From the NCBI RefSeq assembly GCF_019457595.1, contig NZ_CP080419.1, forward strand, positions 3,038,001 through 3,102,000: 64,000 nt of DNA, in the 5' to 3' direction. Below the pieces are notes generated by a model. That model ran no database searches and was not told the origin of the DNA. It saw only the letters and a program-made list of their open reading frames with translations. Made by a program: the position numbers and the translations under genes. Source of the DNA: Shewanella psychrotolerans (GTDB lineage: Bacteria; Pseudomonadota; Gammaproteobacteria; Enterobacterales; Shewanellaceae). This document shows positions 18,572 to 28,704 of the stretch, in pieces. Each line of letters begins with the position of its first letter. Positions within the stretch are counted from its first letter, which is position 1.

Positions 18572-19051
18572 ATGTCTATTTATGATTTTTCAGTAACAAG
18601 GATTGATGGTAGCGAACAACCAATGAGTGACTTTAAAGGTAAAGTCTTGCTTATCGTCAATACTGCCAGCAAGTGTGGATTTACACCCCAGTACAAGGCC
18701 CTGCAGGCTTTGTATGATTCTTATGGCCCTGAGCACTTTGCTGTACTGGGGTTTCCTTGTAATCAATTCGGTAAACAGGAGCAAGGAGACGAGTCGCAGA
18801 TAAGTCAGTTTTGTGAACTCAATTTTGGGGTTAATTTTCCACTATTTGCAAAAATAGAGGTCAACGGAGACGGTGCTAGCCCACTGTATCGTTACTTAAA
18901 GAAACAAGCTAAAGGTCTATTAGGTAGTGAATCGATTAAATGGAATTTCACTAAATTCTTAGTCAATAGTGACGGAGAGGTCCTTGAGCGATTCGCCCCA
19001 ACAACCACACCCGAATCTCTTGAACAAAAGATAAAATCTTTACTCAATTAA
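18572..19051 (+). CDS. Glutathione peroxidase (thioredoxin/glutathione peroxidase type)
   Basis: The 159-residue enzyme has the active-site cysteine in NTASKCGFTP, the conserved block GFPCNQFGKQEQG, and the WNFTKFLV motif supplying the Trp and Asn of the catalytic tetrad. It would reduce hydrogen peroxide or lipid hydroperoxides in the cytoplasm. Bacterial members with Cys in place of Sec often prefer thioredoxin. GGGAGAG lies just before the ATG. The small-RNA array begins about 100 bp downstream. Confidence 0.9.
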   Translation: MSIYDFSVTRIDGSEQPMSDFKGKVLLIVNTASKCGFTPQYKALQALYDSYGPEHFAVLGFPCNQFGKQEQGDESQISQFCELNFGVNFPLFAKIEVNGDGASPLYRYLKKQAKGLLGSESIKWNFTKFLVNSDGEVLERFAPTTTPESLEQKIKSLLN

Positions 19052-19140
19052 TCCAAACAGATAGCAAAAATATGGCAATAAACTGAAATTAATTTGTTTA
19101 TTTTTTGAACTTTATTGACGTTACTGGCTCAAATAATTGA

Positions 19141-19245
19141 ACGCGAAGAATTGATTTTTCATGTTCATCATTCTCCCTGGGACTTCTAGCGCGGTCCCCT
19201 TGATCTTCCTAGATCAATGGCAACTAGATAGGTTGCCTTTTTTTA
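19141..19245 (+). ncRNA. Putative small RNA, unit A of a five-member family
   Basis: This diverged copy has a leader with TTTTTCATGTTCATCATTCTCC, split here as TTTTTCAT, GTTCATCAT (19163-19171) and CTCCCT. Hairpin 1 is GGGAC/GTCCC (19179-19198), with CTAGCGC in its loop (19186-19192). Hairpin 2 is TTGATC/GATCAA (19200-19217). The terminator is GGCAAC/GTTGCC with seven T (19219-19244). No coding frame of note runs through it. The 5' end is approximate; AATAAT near 19133 could be the -10 element. Confidence 0.65.
19219..19245 (+). terminator. Rho-independent terminator of sRNA unit A
   Basis: Stem GGCAAC/GTTGCC with loop TAGATAG is followed by T7. Confidence 0.85.
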
Positions 19246-19361
19246 TATTCCCAATAAAAACACTTTAAAACAACATCTTATATGGAGATAGAAATATCCA
19301 TATAAGATAATTTGAAAAATTTAAACTATTTTCACATCATTTACTGAACTTCTTTAAAAAT

Positions 19362-19520
19362 TGCGACTCTGATAATAGGTAACAGATTTTTTCATCATTG
19401 TTTGTTCATCATCTCCCTTTGGTGACCCTATCGGTCCCAAGAGCATTATCCAAAGCTAGCGCATATGGCTAATGACTCTAAAACACTTTGTTTATGGCAA
19501 CCTTTGGTTGCCATTTTTTT
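19362..19520 (+). ncRNA. Putative small RNA, unit B
   Basis: The block starts at TGCGACTCTGATAATAGG; GATAAT (19371-19376) is a likely -10 element, so the RNA may begin near 19383. The leader holds GTTCATCAT at 19404-19412, then CTCCCT. Hairpin 1 is TTGGtGACC/GGTCCCAA with one bulged base. Hairpin 2 is CATTAnCC/GGnTAATG, with CTAGCGC in its loop (19456-19462). The terminator is GGCAACC/GGTTGCC. Unit C and unit D are near-identical copies. Confidence 0.7.
19496..19520 (+). terminator. Rho-independent terminator of sRNA unit B
   Basis: Perfect stem GGCAACC/GGTTGCC with a TTT loop is followed by A and T7. Confidence 0.88.
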
Positions 19521-19608
19521 GTGCTAAACCTTTTTTATTCTAAACCATTGAAGCCGTATTGAAATAAAACTCAATTTTTTACGATAAGGTGGGAACTAAC
19601 CGTTAATC

Positions 19609-19772
19609 TGCGACTCTGATAATAGGTAACAGATTTTTTCATCATTGTTTGTTCATCATCCCCCCTTTGGAGACCCTATATAGGTCCCAAGAGCATTACC
19701 CAAAAGCTAGCGCATATGGCTAATGACTCTAAAACACTTTGTTTATGGCAACCTTTGGTTGCCATTTTTTTT
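19609..19772 (+). ncRNA. Putative small RNA, unit C
   Basis: It begins 247 bp after unit B and repeats it almost exactly. GTTCATCAT lies at 19651-19659, followed by CCCCCCTTTGG where B has CTCCCTTTGG. Hairpin 1 is changed on both sides of the loop (loop CTATATA, where B has CTATC) but keeps its stem, TTGGaGACC/GGTCCCAA. Hairpin 2 and the terminator are conserved. Confidence 0.7.
19747..19772 (+). terminator. Rho-independent terminator of sRNA unit C
   Basis: Same GGCAACC/GGTTGCC stem as unit B, with A and T8 behind it. Confidence 0.88.
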
Positions 19773-19875
19773 GTGCTAAACCTTTTTGTTCTAAACCTTT
19801 TTTGTTCTAAACCATTGAAGCCGTATTGAAATAAAACTCTATTTTTTACAATAAGGTGGGAACTAACCGTTAATC

Positions 19876-20034
19876 TGCGACTCTGATAATAGGTAACAGA
19901 TTTTTCATCATGTTTGTTCATCATCTCCCTTTGGTGACCCTATCGGTCCCAAGAGCATTACCCAAAGCTAGCGCATATGGCTGATGACTCTAAAAACACT
20001 TTGTTTATGGCAACCTTTGGTTGCCATTTTTTTT
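19876..20034 (+). ncRNA. Putative small RNA, unit D
   Basis: It begins 267 bp after unit C. The leader has GTTCATCAT at 19916-19924 and CTCCCTTTGGTGACC. Hairpin 2 carries a change from TAATG to TGATG in one arm. The terminator ends 2 bp before the stop codon of the convergent aminopeptidase gene. Units C and D also share about 90 bp upstream of the block, so the duplicated segment includes the promoter region. Confidence 0.7.
20009..20034 (+). terminator. Rho-independent terminator of sRNA unit D
   Basis: GGCAACC/GGTTGCC stem with TTT loop is followed by A and T8, abutting the end of the M1 aminopeptidase gene. Confidence 0.87.
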
Positions 20035-20036
20035 AG

Positions 20037-21821
20037 CTAGTTGGCAAACTGCTTATCTAATTGCACGACTAAAGAGGGGTGATAACCGCTCCGCGCCTTG
20101 GCATAGATAGCAGCTAACTCAGAGTGATAGCCAGCAAGCTGCAACTCGGTAAATAGCGGGCGCACAAACTTACCACGACCAATTTTCACCAGATAGCGCT
20201 CAAGCGCAGGTAGTACAAGGTCGTAGTGATTACGGATCGCCACTCGATACCAATCACAGGCTATTTCGGCGTTAGTTGAGTGGGTAAAATCAAACACTTC
20301 GTCTAACTGCATCAATGTTTGTTGATCGACACTGCCAGGCAAGCTACCCAAAAAATACTGCCAATGATGTACGCGCCAATCTTGGGTATTTTGTTTATCG
20401 ATTTTGCCTCCCATTTGCCAATCCGCCAGCAGCGCATCCACTTTATCTAAGCTGTCTGAGCTAGGCGGCGTAAACCAATAGGGCATCCCTCTTCCATATA
20501 CCCACTCTTGCAACTCTTGCTCACTGATCTTGTCGCCATGTTCAACTAACAAGGTCTGCTTTGCATAATCAACAAAAGTTTCGGTGGTGATAGCTTCAAA
20601 AGCAAAGTGGCAAACATATTGATAAAGAAACTTATCGAATGATTCACGGCCAAGACGCTTTTCTAAGTCGTGGACAAACATCGACGCTTTATCATAGGTA
20701 AAGCGGTTAAACGCATCATTTGGGTCGCCCGCTTGCACGTTGGCGGGTAACGTCTGCGCCGCTAACGGCATTAATGCCAACTCCTCTTTTAAGCGGCCAT
20801 ATTCCAGTACGACCTCAAGCTGAGCCTGCTCTTGGCCAAATACCGCTTCAACGATGCGGTTGGTGAAATAGGTAGTAAAGCCTTCATTGAGCCACAAGTC
20901 GCGCCAAGTGGCGTTACTGACCAAATTCCCCGTCCAAGAGTGCGCGAGCTCATGGGCAACGGTTGACACTAAGCTCTTATCGCCTGCTATCAATGTTGGG
21001 GTCATGAATGCGAGCCTTGGGTTTTCCATACCACCAAAAGGAAAGCTCGGGGGGAGCACAATCATGTCATAACGCCCCCACGGATAGGGGCCAAGCAGCG
21101 ATTCAGCAATCTCGACCATCTGCTCGGTATCTTCAAACTCCTTTACCGCTGCCTGTAATAGTTCAGGCTCTGCATACACCCCAGTTCTTGGACCTATTGC
21201 ACCAAACTGTAAATCCCCCACCGCAATGGCCATTAAATGAGTTGGAATAGACTTTTCCATTTCAAAAGAAAAACGGCCAGTTAATGGCGCATCGGCATCA
21301 TTCATGGCGCTCATCACTGCGCGCATCCCCTTAGGCACCTCGACAGTCGCGTTAAAGGTGATACGGGCTTTGGGGCTGTCTTGCAGCGGTATCCAACTGC
21401 GGGCATTAATCGGCTGCGACTGACTAAAAAGAAAGGGTAACTGTTTGCCGCTGGTTTGCTCTGGCGTTAACCACTGCAAACCTTGGGCATCGGCAGAAGT
21501 ACGGTAGCCAATGGATACCCACTTGGTTGCCGAGAGTAAGCGAATATTGAGCCGCTCACCACGAATAGGGTCTTGCTTATCCATGCTAAATGTTAACGCT
21601 TGCCCTGCATCATCAATAACGGATTCAATGGTTAATGTGCGGCAATCTAGATACAGCTCTCGGCACTGAGCATCGAGGTAGTCGAGTTGTAACTGCGCGG
21701 TCCCTAACAACTGCTTTTGTTCAAACCGTACCGACAGCGCAAGATCCAAATGGGTGACTCTGACATGGTCGACATTCGCAAACGAGTGATGGTCTTGATT
21801 ATTATCCCATTGCTTAGACAC
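20037..21821 (-). CDS. M1 family metallopeptidase (leukotriene A4 hydrolase-like aminopeptidase)
   Basis: The 594-residue enzyme has the exopeptidase motif GGMEN (263-267) and the zinc site HELAH (290-294) with third ligand Glu313 in WLNEGFTTYF. The downstream tyrosine lies in RFTYDKAS. The C-terminal helical domain (about 460-590) matches the LTA4H/cold-active aminopeptidase subfamily known from marine gammaproteobacteria. It removes N-terminal residues from peptides. There is no signal peptide, so it is cytoplasmic. It is a single gene flanked on both sides by members of the small-RNA family. Confidence 0.9.
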   Translation of the reverse strand: MSKQWDNNQDHHSFANVDHVRVTHLDLALSVRFEQKQLLGTAQLQLDYLDAQCRELYLDCRTLTIESVIDDAGQALTFSMDKQDPIRGERLNIRLLSATKWVSIGYRTSADAQGLQWLTPEQTSGKQLPFLFSQSQPINARSWIPLQDSPKARITFNATVEVPKGMRAVMSAMNDADAPLTGRFSFEMEKSIPTHLMAIAVGDLQFGAIGPRTGVYAEPELLQAAVKEFEDTEQMVEIAESLLGPYPWGRYDMIVLPPSFPFGGMENPRLAFMTPTLIAGDKSLVSTVAHELAHSWTGNLVSNATWRDLWLNEGFTTYFTNRIVEAVFGQEQAQLEVVLEYGRLKEELALMPLAAQTLPANVQAGDPNDAFNRFTYDKASMFVHDLEKRLGRESFDKFLYQYVCHFAFEAITTETFVDYAKQTLLVEHGDKISEQELQEWVYGRGMPYWFTPPSSDSLDKVDALLADWQMGGKIDKQNTQDWRVHHWQYFLGSLPGSVDQQTLMQLDEVFDFTHSTNAEIACDWYRVAIRNHYDLVLPALERYLVKIGRGKFVRPLFTELQLAGYHSELAAIYAKARSGYHPSLVVQLDKQFAN

Positions 21822-22240
21822 TGATGATTCCTTCTTTTAGTGGGCAGAGCGGTTGAGGATATTGTAGCCATCTCACCCGACAATACCATTGAAATTGACT
21901 GTGTTAGGTGAAGACAAAACACCAGCGCATATTTTATACAACCATAACCCAGCCTTTCTAGCGCCAATACCGACGTTGCGCTTTATGATGAAAAACCATA
22001 AAAATAAGATAGACTCCAGGCTTGAGGGTTAGACCGCACAATCTTAAGCCTCCCAACTCAACAATCACTGGCTGCGTACTGTACAGCCAATAAAGCCCCT
22101 AGCTCAAAATACGAACTTATAATCTACGCTTAAAACTCAAGATTAAAGCCCAAGTCGTTTTTCAGTTTCACTATTCGTCTTAGTTAATTATTTAAAAAAA
22201 TCAAAAAAATTTAAAAATAATCGGAACTAATTAGAAAAAG
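21822..22240. other. Intergenic region upstream of the M1 aminopeptidase gene
   Basis: It should carry the aminopeptidase promoter. From about 22180 it becomes very A-rich before sRNA unit E. No coding frame or strong hairpin was recognised. Confidence 0.4.
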
Positions 22241-22406
22241 TGCACTCTGACTATATGAACAGAATTTGCAGCAGTTGAAAATTCACTTCTTCAACTGGTT
22301 ATATTTTTCATCGTTCATCATCATTCCCTTGAGATAGTTTCTAGCGCAACTATCATTAGATTCCGAATTGGAACTTGTAGCGACCTTATTAAGGTCGCTT
22401 TTTTTT
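22241..22406 (+). ncRNA. Putative small RNA, unit E
   Basis: GCACTCTGACTATATGAACAG (first 20 bases from 22242) aligns with the block start of units B-D, with TATAT as a -10 candidate. An extra 5' hairpin CAGTTGAA/TTCAACTG lies at 22272-22297. The leader holds TTTTTCAT, GTTCATCAT (22313-22321) and TTCCCTT. Hairpin 1 is GATAGTT/AACTATC with CTAGCGC in the loop (22341-22347). Hairpin 2 is TTCC/GGAA. The order leader, two hairpins and terminator is that of units A-D, while the stems have diverged in sequence. Confidence 0.65.
22379..22406 (+). terminator. Rho-independent terminator of sRNA unit E
   Basis: Stem AGCGACCTTA/TAAGGTCGCT is followed by T7 or more. Between here and 22675 only a weak CCTCC/GGAGG hairpin followed by GCGGTTTTT (22642-22665) was seen. 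Confidence 0.88.
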
Positions 22407-22675
22407 ATCTAAAATTTGGCTGAGACGAGCGAGAGTTAGCTCTATCTGAACTCGTTCGCATTAAACAAGCAGAGACTACAAATGATACTGATGGATATCA
22501 CACAGAGTTTTCGCTCTCTTAGATTTGGCCTTATGAAAAACTGGTTGGACATTTTCGAGTTAAAACTTTAACCCTATACATGTGAGTGTCAGATTAATAT
22601 TTCTATGTCTAACGGCGCCATAAAAGGCAAAGCATCAGCAACCTCCAGCCCGGAGGGCGGTTTTTGCAGGCCTTG

Positions 22676-27452: not shown

Positions 27453-28403
27453 TTAAAACTTGTGTTCTAAACCAACACCGAAGTATTTATCGTCAGTATC
27501 TTTACTTTCCATAGAAGTGTTCGTATAGAATGCCAGCACTTTAGTTGGCTTACCTAACTTATAATCAATACCAACTGACCAAGAATCACCTTTATCTTCC
27601 ATGTCTTGATACTGACCTTTTAATACTGCCGCATCAATTGTGTAAGATGCGCTAAATAGGTAACCCGTCTTGCTGTCTGCACCGACAACCTCAGAACCAT
27701 CTTTCTTATAAGTCTCTTCTTGCTGCTGATACATACCGCCAAGCTTCAGGCCTGCAACCTTACCTTGAATGGTGGCACGAACAACTTCATAGCCTTTTAC
27801 GTCAGCATCATAGGCAATAGAGGCGAATACTGGGGTCTTTTTCAGCTTGGCATCACCGTACATAGCGGCAACACTGAAACCGTCTTGTCCATACTGAGAG
27901 CTTGCGCCTTCAGCAGCATAGGTCACACCTAACTTAAAACCACTCCAATTAGGCGTCATATAAGTCGCTGTTTGTTCAATGCGGTTTTCACCCTTGAACA
28001 AGTTTTTCAAATCACCAGACAGGTCGTTGAACTGATCAACTTTACCTTGTGAAATCTTAAGCATGGTGTCGTTACGACCAACAGAAACCGCACCGAAGTT
28101 ACCTTTTACACCAACGAACTGGTTACGAGCCTTGAAGTTTTCCTTAACGTCATCACCAGTGTCCACTTCATACTCAACAGTGTAGAAAGCTTCCAGCGAG
28201 CTGCTTAGCTCGAAAGCCCCTTTCACACCAAAGCGAGAAGCGTTGCTCTGAATAGTCGTCGTTGCATCACCATCTACATCGTTAGATTGAGCCGTTACGT
28301 TTAGTTTGCCGTAAACTGTCAAAGGATCTGCAGCGTGTGCAGAGGCTAAAGTGGCAGAGGCTAGCGCAGAAGCAAGTAGAGTTTTACAAAAAACGTTCAT
28401 CAT
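27453..28403 (-). CDS. Gram-negative general porin
   Basis: The 316-residue protein has a signal peptide (NVFCKTLLASALASATLASAHA) and begins its mature part with DPLTVYGKLNV. A 16-strand porin pattern follows, with FEGENRIEQT-type loops and a C-terminal phenylalanine (FGVGLEHKF). It forms a channel for small solutes in the outer membrane. Two ATGs stand side by side: AAGGA is 4 bases from the first (28403) and 7 from the second (28400), so either may be used. Its place next to phoBR suggests phosphate-related control, but no good Pho box was found upstream. The first nine bases, ATGATGAAC, are complementary to the leader of all five sRNA units. Confidence 0.9.
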   Translation of the reverse strand: MMNVFCKTLLASALASATLASAHAADPLTVYGKLNVTAQSNDVDGDATTTIQSNASRFGVKGAFELSSSLEAFYTVEYEVDTGDDVKENFKARNQFVGVKGNFGAVSVGRNDTMLKISQGKVDQFNDLSGDLKNLFKGENRIEQTATYMTPNWSGFKLGVTYAAEGASSQYGQDGFSVAAMYGDAKLKKTPVFASIAYDADVKGYEVVRATIQGKVAGLKLGGMYQQQEETYKKDGSEVVGADSKTGYLFSASYTIDAAVLKGQYQDMEDKGDSWSVGIDYKLGKPTKVLAFYTNTSMESKDTDDKYFGVGLEHKF

Positions 28404-28704
28404 TTAATCCTTTCGACGTTTGTTCGTCTTAGTTATTGGTTTGGACGGCCGAAAGTGTGCAACTTTTATATTGCAGTTTTATTTCATATATTTCCCACTG
28501 AAGTAAACTCAGTAACAAATACAAGTTCATTGATGGCGAAACCCACAGCTGACAAGGCTTACAGCACTACGGATATAAATATTACAGTTTGATGAATTAT
28601 GTCGAAGAGGCGGTTTTTATAGTGTTTTCACTGTAAACGATAGCGGTTTACCCGACGCCAACAATGGCTTACACTGCGGCTTTATTTTTGATTGAGCGCC
28701 TATC
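28404..28704. other. 301-bp divergent region between porin and rdgC genes
   Basis: It contains the porin 5' leader with AAGGA and the rdgC promoter. Isolated TTGTCAG and CTGTAA words occur on the minus strand near 28530-28560 but without the 11-bp periodicity of a Pho box. No hairpin of note. Confidence 0.4.

Follow-up and report, generated by a model that had tools for sequence, protein, structure and literature searches.

Five repeated units that resemble small RNA (sRNA) genes, A to E, lie together with a porin gene in a 64,000-nt stretch of Shewanella psychrotolerans DNA (GCF_019457595.1, NZ_CP080419.1 positions 3,038,001-3,102,000, forward strand), hereafter referred to as the window. 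The question raised by this locus is whether the units encode sRNAs that silence the porin by pairing with its start codon, as proposed in an initial annotation. The coordinates of relevant features are collected in Table 1. The 9-mer GTTCATCAT, found in the leaders of all five units, indeed complements the porin start ATGATGAAC at every base, and both 10-nt extensions claimed for the match are real: with its GTTCATCATT, unit A can also pair with the A that precedes AUG, and unit E, with CGTTCATCAT, can do so with the G that follows AAC. The porin open reading frame begins with ATGATGAACG and is preceded by ...AAAGGATTAA.

Table 1. Features of the window that bear on pairing between the units and the porin mRNA.
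Feature	Position	Strand	Basis or remark
σE-type promoter, unit A	19107..19133	+	GAACTT-N16-TCAAA; pattern, fits Shewanella RpoE consensus (PMC4336711)
sRNA unit A	19141..19245	+	ca. 105 nt, hairpins, terminator ending in T7; covariance model R1 match, E 6e-23; fold z -4.0
Pairing site GTTCATCAT, unit A	19163..19171	+	exact sequence match
σE-type promoter, unit B	19346..19372	+	pattern match
sRNA unit B	19379..19520	+	two CATCAT sites; fold z, promoter/leader/T-run scan, covariance model
Pairing site GTTCATCAT, unit B	19404..19412	+	exact sequence match
σE-type promoter, unit C	19593..19619	+	pattern match
sRNA unit C	19626..19771	+	fold z, promoter/leader/T-run scan, covariance model
Pairing site GTTCATCAT, unit C	19651..19659	+	exact sequence match
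σE-type promoter, unit D	19860..19886	+	pattern match
sRNA unit D	19893..20033	+	fold z, promoter/leader/T-run scan, covariance model
Pairing site GTTCATCAT, unit D	19916..19924	+	exact sequence match
σE-type promoter, unit E	22224..22250	+	pattern match
sRNA unit E	22257..22408	+	far side of M1 aminopeptidase gene; fold z, scan, covariance model
Pairing site GTTCATCAT, unit E	22313..22321	+	exact sequence match
Porin gene (Porin_4, 316 aa)	27453..28403	-	open reading frame and Pfam, E 8e-36; adjoins phoB/phoR/pstS-like genes
Target site, porin start ATGATGAAC	28395..28403	-	exact complement; kept in orthologs
Porin Shine-Dalgarno region AAAGGA	28408..28413	-	sequence; GGA can pair with leader UCC

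The units, whose neighbours are glutathione peroxidase-like and M1 aminopeptidase-like genes (named from translations), fold more stably than shuffled sequences (z-scores -2.8 to -4.0) and contain an intrinsic terminator with a U-run, a 3' end of the Hfq-type sRNA kind. Units B-D are near-identical tandem copies. The pairing site is located ca. 20-90 nt from the inferred 5' end, in a leader that is unpaired in the consensus fold of the A-type RNA (covariance-model alignment) and is among the best-conserved parts of that RNA. The pattern GAACTW-N16-TCWRA matches the window six times versus 0.25 matches expected, and five of the six matches head units A-E. A σE-type promoter, recognized by sequence pattern only, is thus present upstream of 5/5 units, and also genus-wide. 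The main text of a study of S. oneidensis RpoE promoters gives them as GAACTT, a spacer of 16-17 bp, and TC (PMC4336711); the spacing in the unit promoters is the same.

Two further motifs were observed in the units. A second TTCATCAT, complementary to ATGATGAA starts, lies upstream in units B-D (19391-19398, 19638-19645, 19904-19911), and in the two B-type units of another locus (L007) this upstream copy is retained and the main site has decayed. The heptamer CTAGCGC is present in all five units (19186-19192, 19456-19462, 19707-19713, 19968-19974, and 22341-22347 in A to E, respectively), lies within a predicted hairpin loop in A and E, and is kept in nearly all units genus-wide, although four genomes forming a divergent clade have a degenerate version. 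A role in a second pairing interaction or in protein binding is possible.

A scan of 19 related loci plus the window revealed 83 units with a promoter, a leader, and a T-run, from one to seven per locus, and in diverged copies the promoter, leader, and hairpins were retained while the spacers changed. The variable number of units per locus (L004-L031; window 19050-20040), together with the near identity of neighbouring copies, suggests recent duplication and loss. An A-type covariance model (R1), built from 17 sequences, detected the RNA in 117/117 Shewanella genomes. In a search of 296 genomes drawn from the order, the 21 Shewanella genomes matched strongly, and no convincing A-type RNA was seen in the ca. 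275 genomes outside Shewanella, where the two matches obtained (E ca. 0.005) are at chance level. The units had no match in an Rfam scan of the window at the gathering score, and only chance-level matches at a relaxed E-value. The main texts of papers on Shewanella sRNAs (PMC5471319, PMC2659441, PMC5826389) and on RpoE (PMC4336711, PMC8552667), supplements excluded, do not mention these RNAs. The family appears to be undescribed within the open-licence literature searched.

How much weight can be placed on the match itself? The window contains six copies of GTTCATCAT, whereas shuffling predicts 0.46, and a count of six was never attained in 100 shuffles. The initial annotation cautioned that the match is short and that chance could not be excluded, and a 9-nt match alone is weak: the 9-mer has 94 copies in the genome versus 17 for the reversed word, and two of 348 sampled genes, the porin included, contain in the -25 to +15 region a 9-mer complementary to all five leaders. 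At ca. 0.6% of genes, the porin match is notable for one chosen gene, but alone it is not decisive. An 8-mer complementary to all five leaders was found in 19 of the 348 genes, mostly at ATGAAAAA-type starts. If one G-U pair is allowed, unit A and the porin form 12 pairs, with three more (UCC/GGA) to the Shine-Dalgarno sequence across a small loop. By duplex energy the porin ranked in the top 4% of the sampled genes for unit A and in the top 7-9% for units E and B, so that plain duplex energies did not single it out among the 348 genes. The loop motif GCTAGCGCA of units B-D also matches codons of the porin signal peptide, but this second match was discarded, since most orthologs do not keep it. 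All genome-wide statements rest on pattern searches and fetched stretches.

A porin ortholog was identified in 116 of 117 Shewanella genomes. In a near set, comprising 19 syntenic orthologs and the gene from the window, the start was ATGATGAAC in 20/20 cases. Among 60 genomes chosen deliberately to be diverse (the two sets may share species), 46 had ATGATGAAC, five had ATGATGAAT, in which a G-U pair keeps the match, and one had ATGATGAAA, bringing the number with ATGATGAA at the porin start to 52/60; a divergent clade of four within this set had TTGATGAAC or TTGATGAAT. Synonymous conservation in the porin gene peaks at codons 3-9: the majority-codon share is 0.95 for codons 3-8 and 0.65 over 201 later positions, and frozen positions make up 4/7 of codons 3-9 versus 3/201 later. 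The third codon is AAC in 20/20 genes, while Asn codons in the gene body are mixed (152 AAC, 119 AAT). Since the frozen stretch reaches codon 9, past the pairing site, a translation-start constraint may explain part of this conservation. The remaining two Porin_4 genes, at 3.737-3.739 Mb in the genome, begin with ATGAAAAAA, in one case after GGAAGATGATA, and can form only weak partial pairing. The porin 5' UTR (28404-28450, CCAAACCAATAACCAAGACGAA..AACGTCGAAAGGATTAA) is strongly conserved between species, hinting at further regulation.

On the RNA side, TTCATCAT is retained almost everywhere. In three genomes (G037, G104, G319) the RNA has TTTCATCAT, with the leading G changed to T, and the porins still have AAC or AAT, which means that the ninth pair is not strictly jointly constrained and that the jointly conserved core consists of eight pairs, TTCATCAT with ATGATGAA. 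In one genome (G022) the leader site is broken, the porin has AAA, and pairing is not restored. A search for compensatory leader/target changes, covering 20 genomes in which the porin or OmpA start is unusual, found none; the conservation thus supports but does not prove pairing. Loss of complementarity in relatives that keep both the RNA and the porin would have refuted the proposal; the TTCATCAT/ATGATGAA match is instead kept across the genus. We conclude that the view of the units as sRNAs acting at the porin start codon to silence the gene is supported by promoters, terminators, and genus-wide conservation, the support being comparative only.

The flanks of the genomic copies of the 9-mer, except the five in the units, were read, and about nine convincing ATGATGAAC gene starts were recognized, a list that depends on judgement of which sites are real starts. 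Five of the nine belong to outer-membrane barrels: the porin studied here, OmpA (OmpA_membrane and OmpA domains), a DcaP porin, a FadL-family protein, and the product of an L367 gene. Barrel genes make up a few percent of a genome. The other four starts are those of an MtrC/MtrF-type decaheme lipoprotein, a tetraheme-type cytochrome c3, a globin-like lipoprotein, and a COX1-family oxidase subunit. Genes with the same AGGA Shine-Dalgarno sequence but with ATGATGAA[A/G/T] starts include no barrels (0/7), and the contrast gives a probability of ca. 0.02-0.03 in an exact test worked by hand. With so few genes in each set, and with an excess of exported proteins among starts of this kind, we regard this contrast as suggestive rather than overwhelming. 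OmpA starts with ATGATGAA in 29/30 genomes, with AAG or AAA as codon 3 in 10/30; the DcaP porin occurs in few members of the genus. The case is nonetheless broader than was initially annotated, and is supported, as far as sequence can support it, by σE-type promoters and by the fit of OmpA, FadL, DcaP, and another barrel gene to the predicted pairing site.

The L367 protein (L367:508-1737, minus strand) is a 410-aa barrel-like protein ending in ...KFDVVF that starts with ATGATGAAC and has no Pfam match; among candidate targets, it is the one predicted to pair most strongly with units A and B. Strong pairing is also predicted for the ATGATGAAC start of the decaheme lipoprotein (L369:1-2740, minus strand), which might connect envelope stress with extracellular respiration.

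Three other interpretations of these data have to be weighed. The repeats might be DNA repeats, attenuators, or 3' UTR elements of their neighbours rather than sRNA genes. The near identity of the tandem copies B-D and the absence of expression data for the units leave some room for this, but every copy has its own σE-type promoter and terminator, and it is precisely the promoter, leader, and hairpins that survive in diverged copies as spacers change; we find this interpretation hardly tenable. The porin start could also have been frozen by the demands of translation initiation (tandem AUG, low structure, preferred early codons), with the leader being a generic anti-start-codon sequence and the match having no regulatory meaning. 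Such a constraint would account for the extension of the frozen stretch to codon 9 and for the complementarity of 19 sampled genes, mostly with ATGAAAAA-type starts, to all five leaders. Against it stand the five barrels among nine ATGATGAAC starts, with none among seven ATGATGAA[A/G/T] starts that have the same Shine-Dalgarno sequence, and the strong conservation of the leader relative to most of an RNA that has σE-type promoters, and we consider it very improbable.

A less drastic alternative is that the units are genuine σE-dependent sRNAs directed against other mRNAs, such as those of OmpA or FadL, and that the porin matches merely because it happens to start with ATGATGAAC. The leader does fit several outer-membrane genes, FadL and L367 exceed the porin in pairing energy with unit B, and the 9-mer is abundant in the genome. 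However, nearly all Shewanella retain 8-9 nt of the porin start, in contrast to the drifting remainder of the gene, and porins are classic targets of σE sRNAs, which makes this alternative unlikely, though less so than the two considered above. The reading that we favour, and judge to be probably correct in the absence of any experimental data, is that the units represent an undescribed, Shewanella-specific, multicopy family of σE sRNAs that would repress outer-membrane proteins, including the porin.

According to this favoured reading, envelope stress would free σE (RpoE), and the units would then be transcribed. Their RNAs would act in trans, probably with Hfq: the unpaired leader TTCATCAT and the adjacent UCC would base-pair with the start codon of outer-membrane protein mRNAs and, beyond a small loop, with their Shine-Dalgarno sequence, the predicted targets including the porin at 28395, OmpA, FadL, and the DcaP-type porin. 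Ribosome binding would be blocked, and the load of unfolded outer-membrane proteins would become lighter. The sequence match, the anatomy of promoters and terminators, the genus-wide conservation of RNA and target, and the over-representation of outer-membrane proteins at ATGATGAAC starts are observed. Expression of the units, their dependence on σE and Hfq, Hfq binding, and repression are inferred, without transcript, σE, or Hfq data for the units.

Several known sRNAs invite comparison. MicA of enterobacteria (RF00078) is controlled by σE, has a CAUCAU-rich leader followed by CCC, and represses OmpA near the ribosome-binding site, and the units resemble it in inferred control, leader, and predicted OmpA repression. 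They differ in hairpins, copy number, and gene neighbours: the MicA gene adjoins luxS/gshA, and the units do not. The RF00078 model scored above cut-off in none of 20 Shewanella genomes, while the E. coli positive control did score. MicF and MicC of E. coli pair near a porin start, as predicted for the units, and block translation, but they are not σE-driven, and their sequences are unrelated to the units. RybB of E. coli and Salmonella pairs through its extreme 5' end, unlike the internal site of the Shewanella RNAs, and its Rfam model has no match in the units. RybB is a σE-driven sRNA that acts against many outer-membrane protein mRNAs (PMC1804206), the role inferred for the units. VrrA and MicV of Vibrio cholerae, which are σE-activated and Hfq-dependent and target OmpA and OmpT through a common pairing domain (PMC7602753), provide a functional parallel of several σE RNAs with one pairing domain; they are two separate genes, whereas the Shewanella RNAs belong to a single family whose genes are arrayed in tandem, with one to seven copies per locus. 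Hfq is required for RyhB action in S. oneidensis (PMC5826389). The best reading is that the family works like MicA, RybB, and VrrA, but by sequence is neither MicA nor any Rfam family.

According to the main text of a 2009 study, the S. oneidensis porin Omp35 is controlled after transcription, micA and rybB are absent, and the mechanism was left open (PMC2659441). Although the correspondence between the porin of the window and Omp35 is undetermined, the units, as members of a genus-wide σE-type sRNA family, provide a concrete candidate for post-transcriptional porin control, for which the pairing site is defined and the list of predicted targets is short. It is possible, if short of probable, that in Shewanella this multicopy σE family replaces MicA and RybB, with the copy number (one to seven per locus) setting how strongly this stress brake acts on the outer membrane and ATGATGAA(C) marking a regulon of porin, OmpA, FadL, DcaP, and perhaps MtrC. 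If so, the presence of the MtrC surface cytochrome in the regulon would tie envelope stress to extracellular respiration. The locus points to sRNA control of porins, involving a site at the start codon and sRNA genes copied in tandem, in bacteria used for extracellular electron transfer.
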